From an uncultured Verrucomicrobiota bacterium (lineage in GTDB: Bacteria; Verrucomicrobiota; Verrucomicrobiia; Limisphaerales; UBA1412), in assembly GCA_944389455.1 (NCBI GenBank), contig CALXMK010000003.1:62001-126000 (forward strand): 64,000 nt of DNA. The letters are read 5' to 3'. Position 1 is the first letter of the stretch, and each line of letters opens with the position of its first letter. The notes below the pieces were generated by a model. The model was not told where the DNA came from and did no database searches. It saw only the letters and a list, made by a program, of their open reading frames with translations. A program made the translations under genes and the position numbers. Shown one piece after another: positions 8,172 through 64,000 of this stretch.

Positions 8172-8259
8172 AGTATATTTTTTTCTGTTATTTGGGACAG
8201 ATTTAGAGTATAGATTAATCATTATTTTGTCTGTTTAAGCATATGATTAAAAATTAAAT

Positions 8260-9192
8260 ATGAAGTCGAAATTAAAATATTTAGCGGCGGTGGGATTGCT
8301 GATTGTATTAGCTGCGGCGGCAATTTTATTGAAGAATAAGCTGCCGTTGGCAGATCCTGATGCGGGACAGCCGTTGCTGGTGGAGGCGAAGCAGACGGAG
8401 CAGCAATGGGAGAGATTGGAATTTTTCCCAGTATCGGATACTAACAGATTCTATCATTATCTGAAAGGACTGCCGATTCAAGGGGCGGAATCGCTGACGG
8501 AGGAACAGCTGGAGAAAGTTTATACGACCTTTTTATCAATGGTGCGGGCCTATACGGAAGGGACGTATGAGGCGTATATGAATTTCCGTTTTCCGCCCGG
8601 AGTGAAGTTTATTAAAAATCAGCAAGATGCTGATCTCAGATACAGGTCATGGGATCCGCAAAATGAGTATTGGAAGCAACTGCATCCGGATTCCGATATT
8701 ACGGAACCGACCGATGAGGAGCTTTATCACGCCAGTCTGTTATCCGTCAGCGATGGAAAATATTTTAAAGATATGTGGCAGGGAGTTTGTATTGATCCCA
8801 AAGAGATTTACGAAAAGCTGGGACAGGTGAATCGAGAGGGAAAGAAAGCGAAAGCGGGAATTTATATTTATGAAGGATTGGAAGCGTTTGAGAACTTATT
8901 GGAGAGTTCTTCGTATTTTAGATTGATATCTTCTACGTTTAATGCAGCTGGAGGAATGGCAATCAGTCCTCTGCCTTCCTATTTAAGCAGTACATTTCCC
9001 GGGGTAGGGACAGCGGAGATAGATCCCGAGTGGAGGAGTATGGCGTGTTACTTTTTCGTAAAATCTCCCGGTCAGCCGATAGCCCCTTTCTATTTCTACT
9101 TTTTTTGGGAGAAGGAGGGAGCTCAATGGGTACCGGTAGATTTAGTGTTGGGAACCCTGTTATCGGAAACTTTGATAGTTAGTTTTCTCTAG
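8260..9192 (+). CDS. unknown membrane-anchored protein A1
   Basis: I do not recognise this 310-residue protein. It has a basic N-terminus and one hydrophobic segment (residues about 7-24, AVGLLIVLAAAAILL) with no lipobox Cys, so it is probably an N-terminally anchored or exported protein. The remainder is soluble. Conserved blocks shared with its neighbours are AYTEGTYEAYMNFRFPPGVK (97-116), GKYFKDMWQGVCIDP (166-180), GIYIYEGLEAFENLL (200-214) and FYFYFFWEKEGAQWVPV (277-293). It is almost identical to A2 (10318-11253) up to residue 134, then diverges in patches (158-171, 219-238 and the C-terminus). It is followed 39 bp later by B1, a distant paralogue. No function can be assigned; the repeated aromatic and Trp-Val-Pro blocks suggest a small all-beta or NTF2-like fold, but that is speculation. 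Confidence 0.8.
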   Translation: MKSKLKYLAAVGLLIVLAAAAILLKNKLPLADPDAGQPLLVEAKQTEQQWERLEFFPVSDTNRFYHYLKGLPIQGAESLTEEQLEKVYTTFLSMVRAYTEGTYEAYMNFRFPPGVKFIKNQQDADLRYRSWDPQNEYWKQLHPDSDITEPTDEELYHASLLSVSDGKYFKDMWQGVCIDPKEIYEKLGQVNREGKKAKAGIYIYEGLEAFENLLESSSYFRLISSTFNAAGGMAISPLPSYLSSTFPGVGTAEIDPEWRSMACYFFVKSPGQPIAPFYFYFFWEKEGAQWVPVDLVLGTLLSETLIVSFL

Positions 9193-9231
9193 GGAGAGAA
9201 GAGAGTGAAAGAGAGATTGAGGAGAAATAAA

Positions 9232-10173
9232 ATGAACGGATTAGGAAATAGAATTTTGTTGTCGGTTTTATGTCTGTTTTTGCTCTGCGGAGCAAGAGCT
9301 GATGAAAAGGAGGAAGCTTTTGGAGCGGATATCGTTTTCAAGAATCCGCAGAGACGGTGGATGCAGCAGGAGGATTTAATCGCTTTGCTGAAAGAGCTTT
9401 CATATACAAAGTTTTCCGACACGGAATTTGATAAGAAGTTTGAGGTGATTCCCTTCAGGGAAGAGGTTGAGTTAAGCCAGGAGCAGAGGGATAAATTGAA
9501 GGAGGGAATCAAGAATATGTTTGCAGCCTATAGTGAAGGAGGTTTTGAAACGTATATGAGATTCCGCACTCCTCAGGGGCCGAAATGGAAGATGCCGATT
9601 CCGGTATGGAAAGGAGCCATGTTGGAATGGCTGGATAAGCAGAGGGAGGAAGGCAAAATAGAGGAGGTGAAGAAAACGGGGAAATTGCCCACCGAGCAGG
9701 AGATCTGGAGCTGGCAGTTTGATCAGATAACCCAGGGGAAGGGATATCAGGGGTATTGGACGGGAGTGTGTCTAAAGCCGCTGAGCGCGGAGGAACTGCG
9801 GGAGTACGGAGCACCGAGAAGTTCCGAACTTTATGGGATAAGAGTCTTCGAGTCGGAACGGCTGTTAGATCTGCGCAGCGAATTAACCAAAAGTCAAGAG
9901 ACTAAATATTCAACGTGGTATTGGAATTTTGATTCTTCCGATAATTCTTATATAGAAGAACCGACCGTCAGGCAGATATTGGTTCAGGAGAAGAAGCTGA
10001 TCTATGCGGATTGTTTTCTGATCGTAAGCCGAGAAGGGGAATATGAGTGCCGTCCGGTTTATATCCGTTATTACTGGAATCCGGACTGCGGGATATGGGT
10101 TCCGAGTGAGATGAGATTAGGTTTGGGAGAGCCCTTTGTAGAGAATACTAAAGAAATTTATGAGATGTTTTAA
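9232..10173 (+). CDS. unknown secreted protein B1
   Basis: This 313-residue protein has a clear signal peptide (MNGLGNRILLSVLCLFLLCGARA, cleavage likely before DEKEE). Blocks shared with the A proteins are AAYSEGGFETYMRFRTPQG (98-116), GKGYQGYWTGVCLKP (169-183), YGIRVFESERLLDLRSEL (201-218) and YADCFLIVSREGE ... YIRYYW ... GIWVPSEMRLG (258-298). A and B therefore belong to one divergent family. I chose the ATG at 9232 over the in-frame GTG at 9205 for two reasons: the GTG is GTA in the duplicate copy, and the ATG is preceded by GAGGAGAAATAAA. It has no recognisable catalytic motif. It probably forms an operon with A1. Confidence 0.8.
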   Translation: MNGLGNRILLSVLCLFLLCGARADEKEEAFGADIVFKNPQRRWMQQEDLIALLKELSYTKFSDTEFDKKFEVIPFREEVELSQEQRDKLKEGIKNMFAAYSEGGFETYMRFRTPQGPKWKMPIPVWKGAMLEWLDKQREEGKIEEVKKTGKLPTEQEIWSWQFDQITQGKGYQGYWTGVCLKPLSAEELREYGAPRSSELYGIRVFESERLLDLRSELTKSQETKYSTWYWNFDSSDNSYIEEPTVRQILVQEKKLIYADCFLIVSREGEYECRPVYIRYYWNPDCGIWVPSEMRLGLGEPFVENTKEIYEMF

Positions 10174-10317
10174 GTTTCAGAGTGGATTCAGAGAAAAGAT
10201 AACTTTGGTGAATTGTATTTTTTATCATAAAGGTATTTTTTTCTTTTATTTAAGATAGATTTAGGGTATAGATTAACCATTATTTTGTCTGTGTAAGTAT
10301 ATGATTAAAAATTAAAT

Positions 10318-11253
10318 ATGAAGTCGAAATTAAAATATTTAGCGGCGGTGGGATTGCTGATTGTATTAGCTGCGGCGGCAATTTTATTGAAGAATAAGCT
10401 GCCGTTGGCAGATCCTGATGCGGGACAGCCGTTGCTGGTGGAGGCGAAGCAGACGGAGCAGCAATGGGAGAGATTGGAATTTTTCCCAGTATCGGATACT
10501 AACAGATTCTATCATTATCTGAAAGGACTGCCGATTCAAGGGGCGGAATCGCTGACGGAGGAACAGCTGGAGAAAGTTTATACGACCTTTTTATCAATGG
10601 TGCGGGCCTATACGGAAGGGACGTATGAGGCGTATATGAATTTCCGTTTTCCGCCCGGAGTGAAGTTTATTAAAAATCAGCAAGATGCTGATCTCAGATA
10701 CAGGTCATGGGATCCGCAAGATAAATATTGGAAGCAGCTGCATCCGGATTCCGATATTACAGAACCGACCGATGAGGAGCTTTATCATTGGAGTGTTTAT
10801 ACTCGCTCGGAAGGAAAGTATTATAAAGATGTATGGCAGGGAGTTTGTATCGATCCCAAAGAGATTTACGAAAAGCTAGGACAGGTAAATCGAGAAGAAA
10901 AGAGAGCGAAAGCGGGAATTTATATTTATGAAGGATTGGAGGCTCTTGAAAATCTGTTGGAGAGTTCTTCGTATTGGAAAGTAACCGGATCCACATTTAC
11001 TGCGGCGGGAGGGATAGCACGCGTTTTAATACCTTCCTATTTAAGCAGTACGTTCCCCAAGGTAGGGACAACTGAGATAGATCCCGAGTGGAAGAGTATG
11101 GCGTGTTATTTTTTCGTAAAATCTCCCGGTCAGCCGATAGCTCCTTTCTATTTCTACTTTTTTTGGGAGAAGGAGGGAGCTCAGTGGGTGCCGGTAGATA
11201 GAATTGTGGGGAGTTTGCTGCCGGAAGGTCCCCTGATGCTTAGTTTTCTCTAG
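10318..11253 (+). CDS. unknown membrane-anchored protein A2
   Basis: This 311-residue protein is the duplicate of A1 and has the same N-terminal hydrophobic segment. Residues 1-134 are identical to A1, and the DNA of this part also appears identical, which points to recent duplication or gene conversion. Later differences are clustered: HASLLSVSDGKYF in A1 becomes HWSVYTRSEGKYY here, YFRLISSTFNAAGGMAIS becomes YWKVTGSTFTAAGGIARV, and the last 15 residues differ. Many of these changes are non-synonymous. The family blocks WQGVCIDP and FWEKEGAQWVPV are kept, so the protein is probably functional. Its role is unknown. Confidence 0.8.
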   Translation: MKSKLKYLAAVGLLIVLAAAAILLKNKLPLADPDAGQPLLVEAKQTEQQWERLEFFPVSDTNRFYHYLKGLPIQGAESLTEEQLEKVYTTFLSMVRAYTEGTYEAYMNFRFPPGVKFIKNQQDADLRYRSWDPQDKYWKQLHPDSDITEPTDEELYHWSVYTRSEGKYYKDVWQGVCIDPKEIYEKLGQVNREEKRAKAGIYIYEGLEALENLLESSSYWKVTGSTFTAAGGIARVLIPSYLSSTFPKVGTTEIDPEWKSMACYFFVKSPGQPIAPFYFYFFWEKEGAQWVPVDRIVGSLLPEGPLMLSFL

Positions 11254-11292
11254 GGAGAGAAGAGAGTAAAAGAGAGATTGAGGAGAAATAAA

Positions 11293-12237
11293 ATGAACGG
11301 ATTAGGAAATAGAATTTTGTTGTCGGTTTTATGTCTGTTTTTGCTCTGCGGAGCAAGAGCTGATGAAAAGGAGGAAGCTTTTGGAGCGGATATCGTCTTC
11401 AAGAATCCGCAGAGACGGTGGATGCAGCAGGAGGATTTAATCGCTTTGCTGAAAGAGCTTTCATATACGAAGTTTTCCGACACGGAATTTGATAAGAAGT
11501 TTGAGGTGATTCCCTTCAGGGAAGAAGTTGAGTTAAGTCAGGAGCAGAGGGATAAATTGAAGGAGGGAATCAAGAATATGTTTGCGGCCTATAGTGAAGG
11601 AGGTTTGGAAGCGTATATGAGATTTCGCACTCCTCAGGGGCTGAAATGGAAGATGCCAATCCAGGTATGGAAAGGAGCTTTATTAGAATGGCTGGATAAG
11701 CAGAGGGAGGAAGGCAAAATAGAGGAGGTGAAGAGATCGGGGAAATTGCCTTCCGAGCAGGAGATCTGGAGCCGGCAGTTTGATCAGATAACCCAGGGGA
11801 AGGGGTATCAGGGATACTGGACGGGAGTGTGCCTGAAGCCGCTGAGCGCGGAGGAACTGCGGGAGTACGGAGCGCCGAGAGAATCCGAACTTTATGGGAT
11901 AAGAGTTTTCGAGTCGGAGTGGTTGCTAAATCTACGCAGCGAATTGACCAAAAGGCAAAAGACTAAATATTCAACGTGGTATTGGAATTTTGATTTTTCC
12001 AGCGATTCTAAATATATAGAAGAACCGACCGTCAGGCAGATATTGGCTCAGGAGAAGAAGCTGATCTATGCGGATTGTTTTCTGATCGTAAGCCGAGAAG
12101 GGGAATATGAGTGCCGTCCGATTTATATCCGTTATTACTGGAATCCGGACTGTGGGATATGGGTTCCGAATGAGATGAGATTAGGTTTGGGAGAGCCCTT
12201 TGTAGAGAATACTGAGGGAATTTATGAGATGTTCTGA
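11293..12237 (+). CDS. unknown secreted protein B2
   Basis: This 314-residue protein is the duplicate of B1, with the same signal peptide (cleavage after GARA). Differences from B1 are scattered, for example GGFETYMRF to GGLEAYMRF and PIPVWKGAML to PIQVWKGALL, plus a one-residue insertion near the NFDFSSDSKYIEEP segment. The position matching the upstream GTG of B1 is GTA here, leaving the ATG at 11293 as the natural start. An upstream TTG at 11278 is possible but unlikely. The next gene is the GT-C-like membrane protein, 39 bp downstream, so A2-B2 and that gene may be cotranscribed. Confidence 0.8.
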   Translation: MNGLGNRILLSVLCLFLLCGARADEKEEAFGADIVFKNPQRRWMQQEDLIALLKELSYTKFSDTEFDKKFEVIPFREEVELSQEQRDKLKEGIKNMFAAYSEGGLEAYMRFRTPQGLKWKMPIQVWKGALLEWLDKQREEGKIEEVKRSGKLPSEQEIWSRQFDQITQGKGYQGYWTGVCLKPLSAEELREYGAPRESELYGIRVFESEWLLNLRSELTKRQKTKYSTWYWNFDFSSDSKYIEEPTVRQILAQEKKLIYADCFLIVSREGEYECRPIYIRYYWNPDCGIWVPNEMRLGLGEPFVENTEGIYEMF

Positions 12238-12276: not shown

Positions 12277-14175
12277 ATGAAAGAAAAACTGAAATTTTAT
12301 CTATTGATTCTGTTTGCAACAGGGATTTTTTTAACGATTTTCTTTTTTGCCGGAGGAGCGGATTCTGAGCGGCTTTATTCCAGAGGGTATTATCACGCGC
12401 AGGTCCATTCGCTGCAAAACGGAGAACTGAAGCTCTCTCCCCATATAGAGGCCTTGGAGTTTGACTTGGCTTGGTATAACGGAGGGGTGCAGCAGATTTG
12501 GGGCTTGGGAGTGCCGCTCTGGATGTGGCTTTTTGAAAAGCCGGCGGAGGCGCTTGGAGGGTATTGCTCCGATGTGACCATGTTATTGACGGCATTGGGA
12601 TTACTGCTGTTTTATACTTTCAGCGCGGGAGGAATGCTCTATAAAAGAGGTGTTTCGTCGGAAGGAGTTATTCTCTTTTGCGGATTTATCGTTTTCTCTC
12701 CTCCTTTGTGGATATTTTTCTGGTCTCCCAATGGGGTTTATGAGATAGCCGGAATTTATGCTCTGATTTGCGGGTTGGCACTTTTAGTGGGAGTGGTTCG
12801 ATATGCGGCGGAGCGGCGAAATATCGATTTTTTTATCGTCTGTTTTCTGGCCGGTTTTTCGGCCAATATACGGCCTACGTATGGAATTTATGGGGTAGCA
12901 GCGGGGGCTGTGGTATTGTTTCTTTCTCTCTATGAGAGAAGAGCGGAAAATCGAGTCCGGGTGTGGATGAGGACGTTGAGCGGAGGACTCCTGATTTTAG
13001 GAGGATTACTGTTTTTGTGTTGGAGTAATCAGGTGCGGTTTGGGAGTGCGTTTGAGTTTGGACATAATTTGAGCCATTCAGCCGCTAATATCGTTTATTT
13101 GACGCGGTTTGGGAATCCGTGTGAGGAGGCGAGTTTATGGAGTCTGTGCGGAGAGCTTTTTTTCTGGATTTTTACCCAACCTCACGGAGAATGGCTAATG
13201 GCGCCTATCCCTCGCTGGAGGGATATTTATCAGCCTACATTCGGAATGACCTGGTTGGTTATGCTGATTTTGTGCGGAGTTCTGTTTTGCGGGTTTATTC
13301 GGGTCTATAGGCGTGCTTTGCGGGGGAATATGAGGCACGCTTGCGGCAGGATAGGAACGGAGGAGTCAGGCGTGCTTAGCCGGCCGGTCATGGTGTTTAG
13401 CCTGCTGTTTTTCTTCCTACTGCCGTTTCTTGTTTTGGCTCTCTTTTATCTGCGTTTTGCCACTCTTTCCACCCGTTACATACAGGATTTTGCGCCGGCT
13501 CTGACTGCGGGGCTTTATTGTGGGATTTTTTGCGCGGCGGGACGTTGGAAAAAATGGGTTTGGAGGGCGTTGTATCTGTTCCTTTGCTGGAAGCTCTGTT
13601 TTTTGGTCACTACTCCGGCTGCAGAGAGGCGTTGGATAAAAGCGGTTTTAGGGAAAGATGGAATTTTCGCTGCGGAAGGGAAAAAAATTGCCGACTTTGA
13701 TGGAGTTTATACCTTGGAAAATCATCCTGTGCAGACGGAAATGAGTCCTAACGGACAGGGGTGGAATGAGAAGAGCGGAGAGGCGGAGGCTATAGTGCTT
13801 CTGGCAGTGGATCAGCCGGAATATCTGGAGTTGATTTTGGGAAAAGAAAAAGGGGATATAGAAGGCGTTTATCGGGCAAAAATCAATAATATTGAATTGC
13901 CCAGGGAAGAGATAAAAACGATTGCCTATGGAACGAATGAAGCGGTGAGAGTGAGATTTAGTCTTACGGAAGAGATATTGCGGCAAAGAGGAGATCAGCT
14001 GGTGAGCCTCTGCTTTTCTCCAAGTTTTTGGGAAGGGGATATGAAGCGCACACGGCAGCTTTATCAAGTTCGGTGGAGAGATAAAGAGGATATATCGGAC
14101 TCTTCCAAACCAGGGAGTGAGACACAGAATCAGCAGGAAGTCGGAACTCCAGATAACTCCCAATCTCTGCCTTAG
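12277..14175 (+). CDS. GT-C-type membrane glycosyltransferase-like protein
   Basis: This 632-residue polytopic protein has a first membrane helix at about 7-27, a soluble loop containing EALEFDLAWYNGGVQQIWGLG (about residues 58-78), about ten more hydrophobic segments to residue 460, and a soluble C-terminal region (about 470-632). A large acidic first extracytoplasmic loop followed by many helices is the general layout of GT-C polyprenyl-phosphate-sugar glycosyltransferases or mannosyltransferases. I see no family-defining motif, so substrate and reaction are unknown. The tail, rich in Q, S, P and E, is likely disordered. It lies 39 bp after B2 and ends at a strong bidirectional terminator. 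Proximity suggests a link to the A/B secreted proteins, but this is inference. Confidence 0.6.
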   Translation: MKEKLKFYLLILFATGIFLTIFFFAGGADSERLYSRGYYHAQVHSLQNGELKLSPHIEALEFDLAWYNGGVQQIWGLGVPLWMWLFEKPAEALGGYCSDVTMLLTALGLLLFYTFSAGGMLYKRGVSSEGVILFCGFIVFSPPLWIFFWSPNGVYEIAGIYALICGLALLVGVVRYAAERRNIDFFIVCFLAGFSANIRPTYGIYGVAAGAVVLFLSLYERRAENRVRVWMRTLSGGLLILGGLLFLCWSNQVRFGSAFEFGHNLSHSAANIVYLTRFGNPCEEASLWSLCGELFFWIFTQPHGEWLMAPIPRWRDIYQPTFGMTWLVMLILCGVLFCGFIRVYRRALRGNMRHACGRIGTEESGVLSRPVMVFSLLFFFLLPFLVLALFYLRFATLSTRYIQDFAPALTAGLYCGIFCAAGRWKKWVWRALYLFLCWKLCFLVTTPAAERRWIKAVLGKDGIFAAEGKKIADFDGVYTLENHPVQTEMSPNGQGWNEKSGEAEAIVLLAVDQPEYLELILGKEKGDIEGVYRAKINNIELPREEIKTIAYGTNEAVRVRFSLTEEILRQRGDQLVSLCFSPSFWEGDMKRTRQLYQVRWRDKEDISDSSKPGSETQNQQEVGTPDNSQSLP

Positions 14176-58537: not shown

Positions 58538-61500
58538 TTATTCTTTGACTAAGCGATAGAACTCAGCCGGAGAATCGGCAGTGATCTGAATCTGAACCTG
58601 CATTGTATCTCCTACCAGTTCAGCCTCGAGGATCTCCCATTGGTCGGCATCAGCCTGAGAGGAAACTTCCAGAACAGCATTCTCTGCGGCATCCCAACTC
58701 AAGGTTAGAATATCTCCTTCTAATGAGTATTCTAGGAATAGATTTGATGAGGCGATCAGGGTAGGATGTTCAAATCTCACTACACCATCGGTGCTTGTCG
58801 TATTGTGAGAGGTCATCCACATTCCGATGTAGAGCGGCAGGGTAGAACCCAGAGGCCCACCAACCCAAGCAGAGGTATCTTGACTGTTAATTTCTGTCCA
58901 GCGTTGTCCGTCTAGACTGATGGATGAAATGTAGAGATTGCCCTGACGTTCAAGTCTCTGCCAATGAGGATAACTCAAGAGACCTGTTTCAAAGGCCGTC
59001 GATACGTCAGCTCCAAATGAATTTCTCCATTGGGTGCGATACATGCTGTTGGAGGGTGATTTTTCCCTTTGAATGGTAGAGGCGAAATAGCGGCTCGCTT
59101 CGTTATGATTGCCGTTGGCATCTCCTTCACGCACTTGCAGACCTGCTTTGCTCCATCCATCCGTAGAAGCGATGTAGTCCAGAACTTTGGCGGTAAAGGT
59201 GAAGTCTCCTTCTGGAACAGGCATGTAGAGGTAGCTGAAATGATCAGCTGTTCCCCAAATATCAGAGCCATTGCCCCAGATTTCATAGATACCAAGTTCT
59301 GAGTCATAGTCATAGAATCCTACGGCACCATTTTCTTCCTGTCCGATATTAGCGAAGCTATATTCGCTCGGATCAGGAGTTGGCAGAGGCGGTTCCTGAT
59401 AGGCGGTATTATAGCCGCTTACGGTGGCGTGACGCAGATTAACTTTATCCTGTGCTGAATAGACAATACCGATGTAACCGGAATCTGGCATTTGATATTG
59501 AGTATTGCCCGGTACAGAGGTGAAGTCACCTGTTTGGATTAAGGTCCAATACATCCCGTTGAGGGACCGATAAGCGGTGAAGGTAGTTCCTTCCCGTTTC
59601 AGACGGAGCCACTGTGTGGGATAAGTTTCCGAATTGTGGTTGATACTTCCTGCCATTGTGATGGTAGTGGTTCCATTTGTTTCACTGAGTCTGGGCCAAT
59701 TCTCATCTGTTGAGACAGTCGTTGCACCAGAGGGCGGATAAGGTCTCTGAATGGCCTGAACGCGAGTTGGAGTTGCCAGCATAGCCACATGAGGACTGCT
59801 TGCTTCCAGATTAGCTCGGAAACTTAATCCCAGTTTGGTCCATTCATGGTTATTTTCAATCGATTCTACACAAAGAACGACGTCGAAATCCCCTTCGATG
59901 GGTTCATAAAGGTATAGACAGCTGTCTTCAGCAGCGTTCCAGATATCTCCGCCTCCGTTATAGAGTTGGATAACGTCATTGTCTTCAGGAACCGCAAAAC
60001 CCAGCACTCCATTGGGAGCGAGAATCGTTTCTGAAAGAGGACAGTAATATCCTACTACGGTAACAGGTTCAGGCATAGGAACACCGGAGAGATTCTTTAC
60101 ATTGGACACGGTTACTGAGACAGTAGCCTCGGAGTATGCTTCTATCTGTAAAGAGACAGTTAGATCATCAATTAGTTGAGCGGAGAGAACTGTACCCCCT
60201 TCAATACTGTAATTGGCGGGATCAGTCGCGCTTTCTTCATCAACAGGACTATCAAATGTCACTTCTACATTGCCTACTCCGACTACACTTATCGGTTGGA
60301 CAGGAGTAGCGTTTGATTCGACACTCTTGAATGGAATATCGGCGGAACGGGTAGTATTTCCCGGAATAGAGAGTTCACAGTAGGCGATTTTGCCCACATA
60401 TTCCTGCAGAGCAACCAGTGTATAGGTGCTTTGGGTAGCTCCTTCGATAGGAGCGCCATCCATGTACCATTGATATTCGATAGGAGCATTGTAAGGATTA
60501 TCCGTTTGGGCAACGACTTCCAGAGTGACAAAATCACCCTCGGTTGCGTTGACTTCTTCAGTCTGCTCGAGGATTGTGATATTGGCTGTTGTTGGATCCA
60601 CATACATGCCGATCAGGTTACCTTTGAGGATAGGTTCTGTGCCATTGGCCTGCATAGGTTCCGGCAGTAATCTCCAAGTCATGGCTACAAAGTCGCCGCC
60701 GGTTCCTTCTTGCAGGTTAATATTATAATAGTAACGTTTACCTGCTTCCAATGCGACTTGACGTCCTCCCATTTCGGTGACAGCACCGGAACCGGGAGTA
60801 TAATTGTAGATACGGGCGTCAGTGTTTGAGTTTTGCCAGGCGATAGGGTTGTCCCTGTCCAGATTCAAGGGACTTTCATCCGTAGAGAGGAATGCCTTGA
60901 ATGAATCATCGGAAGATCCCGCGAATTCATAAGTTCCGCTGACCTGAGGACAGAGATAGCCGCTGATCTTGGCGACATAGTTATCCAGGTTAAAGGTAGT
61001 GGATGTAATTTCCGTGACTTTACCTGCCTGAGGCGGAACCATGTAGTTGTGATTATGAATATTCCAGTCAATTACTTCACCCAAAAGATCGTAAGAGCTG
61101 GTGGCGGAGAATGCTTCAAATAGAGCATATCCGGGAACCCAGACGAAAGAGGTAAAGCTAGTTTTATTTGCGACAGGGTTCCCTGCCATATCGTAGATGT
61201 TATTCATCGTGATATTATAGACTTTGCCTTCATCTTGACGTGTGGTTTGGAGAATTGTTTTAGCTAGAATTCCGCTTCCATCATAGAATGGAGTTACAGA
61301 GAGAATGGTCAAGCCGTCGACTTGATAATTGGATAACTCTTCTGCTCCAAAAACGCTTTCACTGAAAGTGACGACAATTTCTTCCATTGTATTGCTTCCC
61401 GTGGCGGTGGCTACAGGAGCTTCTGTATCGCTTGTGACATTAAGAGTGATCTCTTGACTTTCGACAACCCTGTCCAAGAGAGTTGCTTCCATACGGTAGA

Positions 61501-64000
61501 GACCGGAGTGGAGAGATGTGGCTCCATTAAATTTGAGCGAAGGGCTGTTATAACCCGAGATAGATTCTCCTAACAGGTCTTGAGTAATTGGGACCCATTC
61601 TCCATTTGTATAATCACTCTTCATATACCAGGTACAGAGAGGCTTATTGAGCGGCCCCATGTCCGAGGAATAATTCAGATCAATATCCAGGGAGAAGATA
61701 CTGTTTTCATAAACATTAACTGTCGCATCGGGCTGATCGAGAATTTCCAGAACTGTCCGGTGAGGTGCGATAATCCACTTAACATATTCAGAGGAGATAG
61801 CTGCCGTATTATCGGCAATGGCGCTGGGGCCTTGGCTGGGAAGAGACCATGCAATAGTGAGGAAATCTCCGCCTGATCTTTCTACAAAGTAAACTTCGAA
61901 GTAGTAGGGGACTCCGGCTTCCAGGTAAATATTAGAAGATTGCTGGTTGCTTTGTGCATCATAATCCCCATAGCCGACAGAACTGTTAACGGAGGCAATG
62001 GCTGTTTCACTGAGGCCATCGGGGGTGCTGTTAGTGCTGAGGAAGAATCGTGAGTCATCGTCAGAGGAGATAGCGAAGCGGTAATCACCTGTTTGCGGAG
62101 GAAGAATCATTCCGCTGAAGAATACTCCGTAATAGTCTCCGATATCTCGTGGGATGGTCATTCCGTTATTATTTTCTTCACGACGGGTGCTATAAGCTCC
62201 GGATTGCACTGCTGCCATAAGCGGAGCGATTGAAGTTAAAGAATCGTCATTTTCATAATATTCTAAATAAATGGGATATTCCTGCAGGATCGTAATTTCA
62301 ATTACCTCATCCACAGTTAGGGGATTCCCGGAGCGATCGACTAAACCGCTGACGTTTAATAGGAATTCGCCGCCTTCGAGGAAATAATCTGATTCCAGAG
62401 TAATGTAGGTAGCATCCTCATTGATATTAACTCCTGTGATCGCAATCGGATTTCCATCCAGATCCGTTAATTGATAGTTAGAGAAATCCAGCAGAGAATC
62501 GATATCCATTCCTTTGCTGAATTGGAGGAAAGGCAATAGTACATCCAGATCGAATCCGCTTGCTACCAATTCAGGCAGAGTAGTATCGGCTGAGACGGTA
62601 ACAACGGTGGGATTAGACATAACGGAGGTTCCTTTGTCGGCAGCACCATGGCCGAAATTCATTACTTCACAGGTATAGCTGCCGGAGTCGGAGGCCGCTG
62701 TATAGGGAAGTGTTAGAGTGGCTTGATCAGCCCCTTCTATAGCAACTCCATCTTTATACCATTGGTAGGTGAGGGGATCTCCATCCGCCACAATCTTGAT
62801 TGTAAGAGGATTAGGCCCTTCCACAGAAACACTTGTCGGAGGTTGAGTTGTAATAGAGACGGGTTTTAGATAAGATTCTTCCCAATCAATGAAGTTTGCA
62901 TAGAATTTAACTGTTGGGTTTTTAAATTCATTTGTTAGACTTTGAGGAAGATTGGTAGAGTCTTCCGCGAAATTGCGGCCTTCAACAGCGTAATGAATTC
63001 CTCCATAGAGAGTCTGATTCAGGTTTTCAAAAACTTTCTCCCCCGTTTTGTGCCATGTAATCTGATCTGTACTGTAGTAAGAGGTGACTTTATCTCCATT
63101 ACGATTGAGTCGGATCCATGTATTTCCCGCCAGTTCAAAAGGATGAACGGAACTACCGTCAGGCAGAAGAAAAGATTCCACCGTAGAAGCATATTCCGAA
63201 GTATCGCCTCCGGTTTCGGCTCGGTGAATATGCCGCAGAATATGACGATAATCGGAGAATCCATCCATATTGGGAACAGGAGCTGTATAAACAGAATTGG
63301 TGGCGTCCCATTTTATCTGCTCAAGGGGTCTATGATGCAGGCCTATATAGCGGCTATGATTGGTCAGAGTGCCTTCATCTAGGGATTCACGGATTTCCAG
63401 TCCCGCACGTGCGTCGTAGGTTGCCGGACTGGAGTCAAGGACGCGGATGCGAATATCAAAATCACCGGTATAGCTCTTGCATAAGAGGGTGTCTTCATCA
63501 TATTTATCCCAGTCGAAAAGACCCTGATTATTTAAACGGAATTTATCGCCGCCCAACAGCTCACCTGTACCGGCTACAAAAGGTTTGCCTGTATTTGCCA
63601 GAAGGAATTCTGCTTCAGCGGTTACAACCGTATCAGCTGCAATGATGTTGCCGGAGAGATCGGCCACATTCTTTACGGTTACTTCCGCATTTCCTCCGAT
63701 ACTGATATCGCTGTTCAGAGTAAGCACGACACGGCTGCTGTCGGTTTGAGTAACGGATTGCACCGTCTTTCCGCTCACACTGTAATTGGCTGCCACAGTT
63801 GCTGTTTCAGCGCTTACAGGTTCGTTGAAAGTAATACCGATGGTTTTATTCAGCGCTGAAGCAGAGGTGATTGTGGGAGGATCATCATCTGTTGTTACAT
63901 CCAGAGTAAAGTTTGCCGAATCATTCGTCTCTGTTCCATTAACTTGATTGCTGACACGGAGTGTGTATTCTCCGCCATCATTTGGTTCCGCTGCAGGGAT
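58538..64000 (-). CDS. giant modular secreted protein (Ig-like, PA14, concanavalin-like modules), N-terminus beyond window
   Basis: The minus frame is open from the stop at 58538 to base 64000, so at least 1820 residues are present and the N-terminus is missing. The order from the window edge is: an Ig-like end; a Big_5/SbsA-type domain (DPPTITSASALNKTIGITFNEPV); a DUF1349-like concanavalin domain; an I-set Ig domain (YQWYKDGVAIEG); a second Big_5; a PA14-like domain (FFSGMILPPQTGDYRFAISSDD); an Ig-like domain; a third Big_5; a second PA14-like (GYLCPQVSGTYEFAGSSDD); an I-set Ig (YQWYMDGAPIEG); a fourth Big_5; and two more DUF1349-like domains. The C-terminus, LTLSWDAAENAVLEVSS and ending AEFYRLVKE, is the small FYRL-ending module common in Verrucomicrobia. 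No catalytic domain is visible; an enzyme may lie upstream of the window. Confidence 0.85.
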   Translation of the reverse strand: MPAAEPNDGGEYTLRVSNQVNGTETNDSANFTLDVTTDDDPPTITSASALNKTIGITFNEPVSAETATVAANYSVSGKTVQSVTQTDSSRVVLTLNSDISIGGNAEVTVKNVADLSGNIIAADTVVTAEAEFLLANTGKPFVAGTGELLGGDKFRLNNQGLFDWDKYDEDTLLCKSYTGDFDIRIRVLDSSPATYDARAGLEIRESLDEGTLTNHSRYIGLHHRPLEQIKWDATNSVYTAPVPNMDGFSDYRHILRHIHRAETGGDTSEYASTVESFLLPDGSSVHPFELAGNTWIRLNRNGDKVTSYYSTDQITWHKTGEKVFENLNQTLYGGIHYAVEGRNFAEDSTNLPQSLTNEFKNPTVKFYANFIDWEESYLKPVSITTQPPTSVSVEGPNPLTIKIVADGDPLTYQWYKDGVAIEGADQATLTLPYTAASDSGSYTCEVMNFGHGAADKGTSVMSNPTVVTVSADTTLPELVASGFDLDVLLPFLQFSKGMDIDSLLDFSNYQLTDLDGNPIAITGVNINEDATYITLESDYFLEGGEFLLNVSGLVDRSGNPLTVDEVIEITILQEYPIYLEYYENDDSLTSIAPLMAAVQSGAYSTRREENNNGMTIPRDIGDYYGVFFSGMILPPQTGDYRFAISSDDDSRFFLSTNSTPDGLSETAIASVNSSVGYGDYDAQSNQQSSNIYLEAGVPYYFEVYFVERSGGDFLTIAWSLPSQGPSAIADNTAAISSEYVKWIIAPHRTVLEILDQPDATVNVYENSIFSLDIDLNYSSDMGPLNKPLCTWYMKSDYTNGEWVPITQDLLGESISGYNSPSLKFNGATSLHSGLYRMEATLLDRVVESQEITLNVTSDTEAPVATATGSNTMEEIVVTFSESVFGAEELSNYQVDGLTILSVTPFYDGSGILAKTILQTTRQDEGKVYNITMNNIYDMAGNPVANKTSFTSFVWVPGYALFEAFSATSSYDLLGEVIDWNIHNHNYMVPPQAGKVTEITSTTFNLDNYVAKISGYLCPQVSGTYEFAGSSDDSFKAFLSTDESPLNLDRDNPIAWQNSNTDARIYNYTPGSGAVTEMGGRQVALEAGKRYYYNINLQEGTGGDFVAMTWRLLPEPMQANGTEPILKGNLIGMYVDPTTANITILEQTEEVNATEGDFVTLEVVAQTDNPYNAPIEYQWYMDGAPIEGATQSTYTLVALQEYVGKIAYCELSIPGNTTRSADIPFKSVESNATPVQPISVVGVGNVEVTFDSPVDEESATDPANYSIEGGTVLSAQLIDDLTVSLQIEAYSEATVSVTVSNVKNLSGVPMPEPVTVVGYYCPLSETILAPNGVLGFAVPEDNDVIQLYNGGGDIWNAAEDSCLYLYEPIEGDFDVVLCVESIENNHEWTKLGLSFRANLEASSPHVAMLATPTRVQAIQRPYPPSGATTVSTDENWPRLSETNGTTTITMAGSINHNSETYPTQWLRLKREGTTFTAYRSLNGMYWTLIQTGDFTSVPGNTQYQMPDSGYIGIVYSAQDKVNLRHATVSGYNTAYQEPPLPTPDPSEYSFANIGQEENGAVGFYDYDSELGIYEIWGNGSDIWGTADHFSYLYMPVPEGDFTFTAKVLDYIASTDGWSKAGLQVREGDANGNHNEASRYFASTIQREKSPSNSMYRTQWRNSFGADVSTAFETGLLSYPHWQRLERQGNLYISSISLDGQRWTEINSQDTSAWVGGPLGSTLPLYIGMWMTSHNTTSTDGVVRFEHPTLIASSNLFLEYSLEGDILTLSWDAAENAVLEVSSQADADQWEILEAELVGDTMQVQIQITADSPAEFYRLVKE

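Follow-up and report, generated by a model that had tools for sequence, protein, structure and literature searches.

A duplicated pair of envelope-protein genes in an uncultured Verrucomicrobiota bacterium belongs to an order-wide family linked to cysteine-rich peptides and MauE-like proteins

The tandem array and the origin of the A-B pair

Four ORFs lie head to tail across positions 8260-12237 of a 64,000-nucleotide stretch of DNA (hereafter, the window) from an uncultured Verrucomicrobiota bacterium, in the order A1, B1, A2, and B2. What are the proteins encoded by this twice-repeated block, and what may they do? The features concerned are as follows.

A1, 8260..9192, + strand: membrane-anchored member of an unnamed, predicted NTF2-like family (ORF; paralogue of B; model pLDDT 79, pTM 0.76)
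B1, 9232..10173, + strand: signal-peptide-bearing protein of the same family as A1 (model pLDDT 84.5, pTM 0.80)
A2, 10318..11253, + strand: second A copy (protein 89% identical to A1)
B2, 11293..12237, + strand: second B copy (protein 93% identical to B1)
Identical tract of the first unit, 8241..8661, + strand: same as 10299-10719, conversion-like (unit-versus-unit alignment)
Identical tract of the second unit, 10299..10719, + strand: same as 8241-8661 (unit-versus-unit alignment)
Multi-span membrane protein of 632 amino acids, 12277..14175, + strand: GT-C-like by inspection

The ORFs in this study were called mechanically, and several contigs ended at the genes of interest. The mechanically listed start of B1 was a GTG at 9205; an ATG at 9232 was preceded by GGAG. 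The offset between the two units, given as a constant 2,058 bp in a sequence-only reading of this DNA, was exact for A1-A2 and true to one codon for B1-B2 (2,061 bp), A2 being one codon longer. A and B showed 26% identity over 252 amino acids by BLASTP (E=2e-15), and hhalign of the A profile against the B profile gave a probability of 99.9% (E=1.7e-33) with the named motifs in register: AY-EG-YM-FR-P-G, W.GVC, and the YYW/FFW..WVP endings, all of which were conserved within the genus. This similarity was far beyond chance and indicated that A and B are true paralogues; the motif order that they had been noted to share was real. As read from the sequence, A begins with a hydrophobic anchor with no clear cleavage site, and B with a signal-peptide-like segment (with a lipobox-like LLFGC in two related genomes). 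The proposed pairing of a membrane-anchored A with a secreted B was supported, and the A-B arrangement was kept in three species of the genus.

Divergence along the two units was uneven: 421 bp were identical (8241-8661 and 10299-10719), and most other coding segments had dS values of approximately 0.3-0.7 (up to 0.68) with dN/dS mostly below 0.35. The overall dS between units was 0.25 for A and 0.17 for B, with purifying constraint. The identical tract suggests gene conversion. These values are better explained by a tandem duplication of older date, overlain afterwards by a conversion-like tract, than by a fresh amplification of the units, which was rejected on dS; the earlier description of the block as "being amplified" was not supported. 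In the maximum-likelihood tree, all A proteins formed one clade (100/99), all B proteins another (100/99), and A and B grouped together (98/92). Judging from these clades, the A/B split predates the species of the genus, in agreement with the view of A and B as ancient paralogues, but falls within the line of this genus: the A-B pair is a derived form of one genus. Further A-B units were found in the same genome on contig C31, where A and B lie at the very end and truncated remnants also occur, and on contig C32, which has two A-B pairs; the related MAGs G002 and G003 (THP_Bin_22) also carried A-B pairs. At the end of C31, a truncated A (L027:8538-9149) and a B fragment (L027:10663-10830) preceded an intact A-B pair, as remnants of more units. 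A single member in G003, an A-B species, was closest to those at L066 and L082 of other families (L106:6504-7544; a possible transfer).

Distribution, conserved residues, and predicted fold of the family

Members of the family were detected in 30 of 320 genomes of the order with profiles built from A and B (A3), and in 31 of 320 with those from a wider set (A4); further matches in the class and phylum samples were all inside the order, except for one weak match. Whereas A-B pairs were present in three species of the genus, members elsewhere in the order were usually single-copy and stood in a gene cassette, a setting that had gone unnoticed when a paired A-B system was pictured from the window only. 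No family in Pfam, NCBIfam, PHROGs, or PADLOC matched A or B, no PADLOC or PHROGs model for anti-phage defence or phage families did so, nothing credible was found among PDB sequences, and a tblastn search of plasmids gave no match to B. The matches to DUF7611 and PepSY_2 were rejected as the identity of the family because they were below the cut-off and not common to its members. Together with the BLASTP and profile comparisons described above, these searches agreed with the initial view that the four ORFs belong to one unrecognised family.

Pairwise identity within the family dropped to approximately 15-20%, and the terminal branches of its tree often exceeded 1.5 changes per site; members were still recognisable by FR-P in the first half, a Trp in the middle, and a terminal YW----W-P. 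The C-terminal residue was Phe in 40 of the 54 members versus 12 of 271 control ORFs, and Phe was within the last two positions in 46 of the 54. A CxxC motif, mostly followed by Trp (YCTQCW, WCTDCW, YCTKCW, and others), was found in the insertion (see below) of about a dozen members outside the genus, at a position corresponding to W.GVC or to no cysteine in members of the genus, which hints at a possible thiol function for some members. Since CxxC was missing in about three quarters of the members, and the A proteins of the C31 and C32 loci were without the W.GVC cysteine, a redox role for the family protein itself is not general.

AlphaFold2 models made separately for A (pLDDT 79, pTM 0.76) and B (pLDDT 84.5, pTM 0.80) showed the same order of elements: an anchor helix, helices, an insertion, and a final three-stranded meander. 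Unrelated folds of A and B, which had been raised as the finding that would speak against their kinship, were not seen. Foldseek gave no match at E 0.001 or better for either model, its NTF2-like matches having E above 0.1; polycystin rows, which topped the results for B, were disregarded (rmsd 18-20). VIA-align 2 returned mostly NTF2-like structures for both models, with best Z values of 6.1 and 5.9 over approximately 105-130 residues (model residues 60-305), although a Z of 5-6 is weak and values of this size also arise without relatedness. A Pfam scan of all 36 members gave no NTF2-like/SnoaL sequence profile up to E 1. Since the two models agree, we consider the fold to be putatively NTF2-like with a long insertion, at no more than moderate confidence. 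The likeness to the NTF2-like (cystatin-like) superfamily, for example Pgp2 (6xj7), 3b7c, and AtzH (6bjt), lies in the predicted core, in which helices pack against a curved sheet, whereas the A/B family adds an insertion of approximately 80-120 residues, a membrane anchor, and a terminal Phe, with no sequence similarity and a Z of 5-6.

Gene neighbourhoods outside and within the genus

Outside the genus, the typical gene order was a cysteine-rich peptide, the family protein, a MauE-like membrane protein, and then pseudopilin and glycosyltransferase genes. The peptide was encoded directly upstream by a small ORF whose product has 6-12 cysteines and a signal sequence of the Sec type. When a signal sequence and at least six Cys directly upstream were taken as the criterion, a peptide was found for 18 of 35 members outside the genus versus 5 of 271 controls (genes of at least 200 amino acids from the same loci; Fisher 2e-15), and a MauE-like protein was found downstream of 19 of 34 members versus 1 of 271 controls (5e-20); the loci are not phylogenetically independent, and these p-values overstate the evidence. 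Of the five control peptides, three looked as if they belonged to the peptide class as well. By this criterion, roughly half of the family genes outside the genus had no peptide, some through a frameshift, a contig end, or the threshold. Because the thresholds had been shaped on the first loci, 13 previously unused loci were fetched as a held-out set: the peptide was present in 6, and MauE in 8. The MauE-like protein carries CxCxG and matched Pfam MauE at three such genes (E=5.5e-13, 2.7e-11, and 2.9e-16). Among the first-set loci, pseudopilins (FTLIELLVV; one with H-X9-DG) occurred in 13, and two glycosyltransferase-type families in 5-7; in several families of the order, a GT1-type glycosyltransferase gene lay beyond MauE together with a second conserved ORF. 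Two further arrangements were observed. At L070:9867-11999, directly after MauE, an O-antigen-ligase-like Wzy_C domain (E=5.8e-10) was fused to a peptidoglycan transglycosylase domain (Transgly; E=3.4e-48); relatives were present at L066:8892-11129 and L081:6548-7315; and a single contig carried one family gene with three MauE-like ORFs around it (L075:3937-9679).

Within the genus, contig C32 had the order A-B, a cysteine-rich ORF, A-B, MauE, the GT-C-like gene, an FAD oxidoreductase, and a pseudopilin. In G002, a cysteine-rich secreted protein was encoded directly before A, and on another contig B was followed by MauE, the GT-C-like gene, an oxidoreductase, and a pseudopilin. The sole MauE found in the genome of the window lay directly after an A-B array, as did both of its only two copies of the GT-C-like gene. 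The GT-C-like protein of the window was 45-54% identical to homologues in the sister cassettes of the genus; it had no Pfam family and no PDB sequence relative, and is labelled a glycosyltransferase by inspection only. Neither the region upstream of A1 nor that separating B1 from A2 contained a signal-bearing cysteine-rich ORF, and the window array consisted of A-B-A-B and the GT-C-like gene, with neither peptide nor MauE beside the copies. Since the GT-C-like gene is present but the peptide and MauE are absent, this array resembles a satellite of the fuller C31/C32 locus. The family was missing from two species, G001 and G004, of the genus, and their MauE, peptide, and GT-C-like genes surrounded another secreted protein of approximately 360-430 amino acids in its place; the partner protein, therefore, seems exchangeable. 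A putative second group of secreted proteins of this size was observed in or near the partner position at L119:4126-5202, L120:3800-5089, L029:3183-4301, and L121:3147-4244, between MauE, the cysteine-rich peptide, and the GT-C-like gene, whether or not the genome also carried the family. Positions 14256-63796 of the window encoded many large secreted proteins resembling sugar-polymer degradation enzymes, and a secreted multi-repeat protein of 1,752 amino acids at 58538-63796.

The window array, which has no peptide or MauE, is compatible with an ordinary duplication, confined to the lineage, of a hypothetical envelope protein that has no functional tie to its neighbours. However, the linkage measured against control genes from the same loci, and its replication in the held-out loci, already disfavour this reading, and we regard it as very improbable.

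Similarity among family proteins was correlated with similarity among their peptides over 22 pairs (Mantel r=0.77, 0/5,000 permutations; rank rho=0.27, p=0.004); four close pairs, including one between two families of the order, accounted for most of this correlation. This co-variation fits cognate pairs or cassettes that may have moved as one, with organism relatedness explaining part of it. Cognate co-variation is also compatible with a toxin-immunity system, in which MauE would mature peptides acting as bacteriocin-like toxins, the family protein would confer immunity from its membrane anchor, and the peptide-less A-B arrays would be orphan immunity genes; the gene order from peptide to partner, the patchy distribution (31/320 genomes), the very fast divergence (with end branches that often exceed 1.5 changes per site), the L065 array with several peptides and partners, and the peptide-less window array are likewise compatible with this explanation. 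We nevertheless consider it unlikely because immunity does not require the recurring MauE, pseudopilin, and glycosyltransferases, neither a bacteriocin leader nor an exporter was seen, and neither the CxxC motif nor the conserved terminal Phe is a hallmark of immunity.

Of the peptide loci, 6 of the 8 that had the GT1 gene, but none of the 10 that lacked it, showed an SGSG-type run after the signal sequence of the peptide, the motif having been picked after looking. A peptide motif that tracks the glycosyltransferase in this manner, the pseudopilins in 13 first-set loci, the two glycosyltransferase-type families, and the GT-C-like gene in the genus may point to a surface glycoprotein or pilus, in which the peptide is a glycosylated subunit or cap shown via the pseudopilin machinery, and the family protein would serve as a subunit for structure or assembly and not as a folding factor. 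Such pseudopilins are, however, abundant in Verrucomicrobia and their linkage may be part background, and neither a secretion ATPase nor a secretin gene caught attention on incidental inspection of the fetched stretches, leaving this explanation doubtful, to a similar degree as toxin and immunity.

Proposed role and comparison with known systems

Genes for MauE beside precursors with at least eight cysteines have been reported as RiPP candidates in Streptomyces (decRiPPter), and MauE has been speculated to aid disulfide formation in the small subunit of methylamine dehydrogenase (PMC7794033). The cassettes resemble these clusters in that a MauE homologue adjoins a small many-cysteine protein that is thought to be modified; they differ in that the clusters are actinobacterial RiPP candidates, whereas the peptides here have Sec-type signals and are accompanied by pseudopilin, glycosyltransferases, and a predicted NTF2-like partner, whose family goes unmentioned in the source's account of the clusters (PMC7794033). 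MauE next to a small cysteine-rich exported peptide was found in the cassettes and not at the window copy. In the maturation of methylamine dehydrogenase (MauA with MauE and MauD), a MauE-type membrane protein is similarly tied to a small disulfide-rich exported protein, but no mau dehydrogenase subunits were noticed among the cassette neighbours, the cassette peptides are far smaller and diverse, and the partner protein is different. Given this likeness of MauE to the methylamine dehydrogenase and Streptomyces cases, the most likely products of the cassette are secreted peptides rich in disulfides. Verru_Chthon and other H-X9-DG pseudopilin cassettes share the FTLIELLVV start, the H-X9-DG end, and a location beside secreted proteins in Verrucomicrobia; the Verru_Chthon model scored far below its cut-off, and, to our knowledge, the cysteine-rich peptide, the family protein, and MauE are no part of the Verru_Chthon description. 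Literature searches on Verru_Chthon and on MauE/DoxX returned nothing, and no text linking MauE, Verrucomicrobia, and pseudopilin was found.

The A/B family comprises undescribed, order-wide envelope proteins of approximately 300 amino acids, for which we propose, at slightly less than even confidence, the role of a dedicated partner that matures or displays Sec-exported cysteine-rich peptides together with MauE; the family protein would help to fold, hold, or display them. With its N-terminal anchor or signal peptide, predicted NTF2-like core, long insertion with Trp-Cys or CxxC-Trp, and C-terminal Phe, the family protein would bind the nascent peptide in its NTF2-like pocket on the outward-facing side of the membrane, and, with MauE, may act in disulfide formation in the peptide, in holding it, or in its hand-over for display. 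In this genus, the partner would have diverged into two forms, A being anchored in the membrane and B secreted or lipid-anchored. Of this picture, the analysis establishes the family and its paralogy, the gene linkage, the co-variation with the peptide, and the terminal Phe, while the fold, the binding of the peptide, and the redox role are inferred. More tentatively, the whole may represent an undescribed system of Verrucomicrobiota, in which diverse Sec-exported disulfide-rich peptides (possibly glycosylated in some lineages) are matured by MauE and a co-varying membrane-anchored NTF2-like partner (with CxxC-Trp or Trp-Cys and a C-terminal Phe) and displayed through pseudopilins, the A/B pair having spread in one genus as peptide-free arrays.

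If this proposal is right, it would open a way towards the function of an unnamed family and of a whole class of hypervariable cysteine-rich peptides exported by members of a little-cultured phylum, and the cognate peptide-partner pairs would offer a built-in test. It would also extend MauE from the maturation of one known enzyme to general peptide maturation, and the cassettes would constitute a new source of disulfide-rich peptides.
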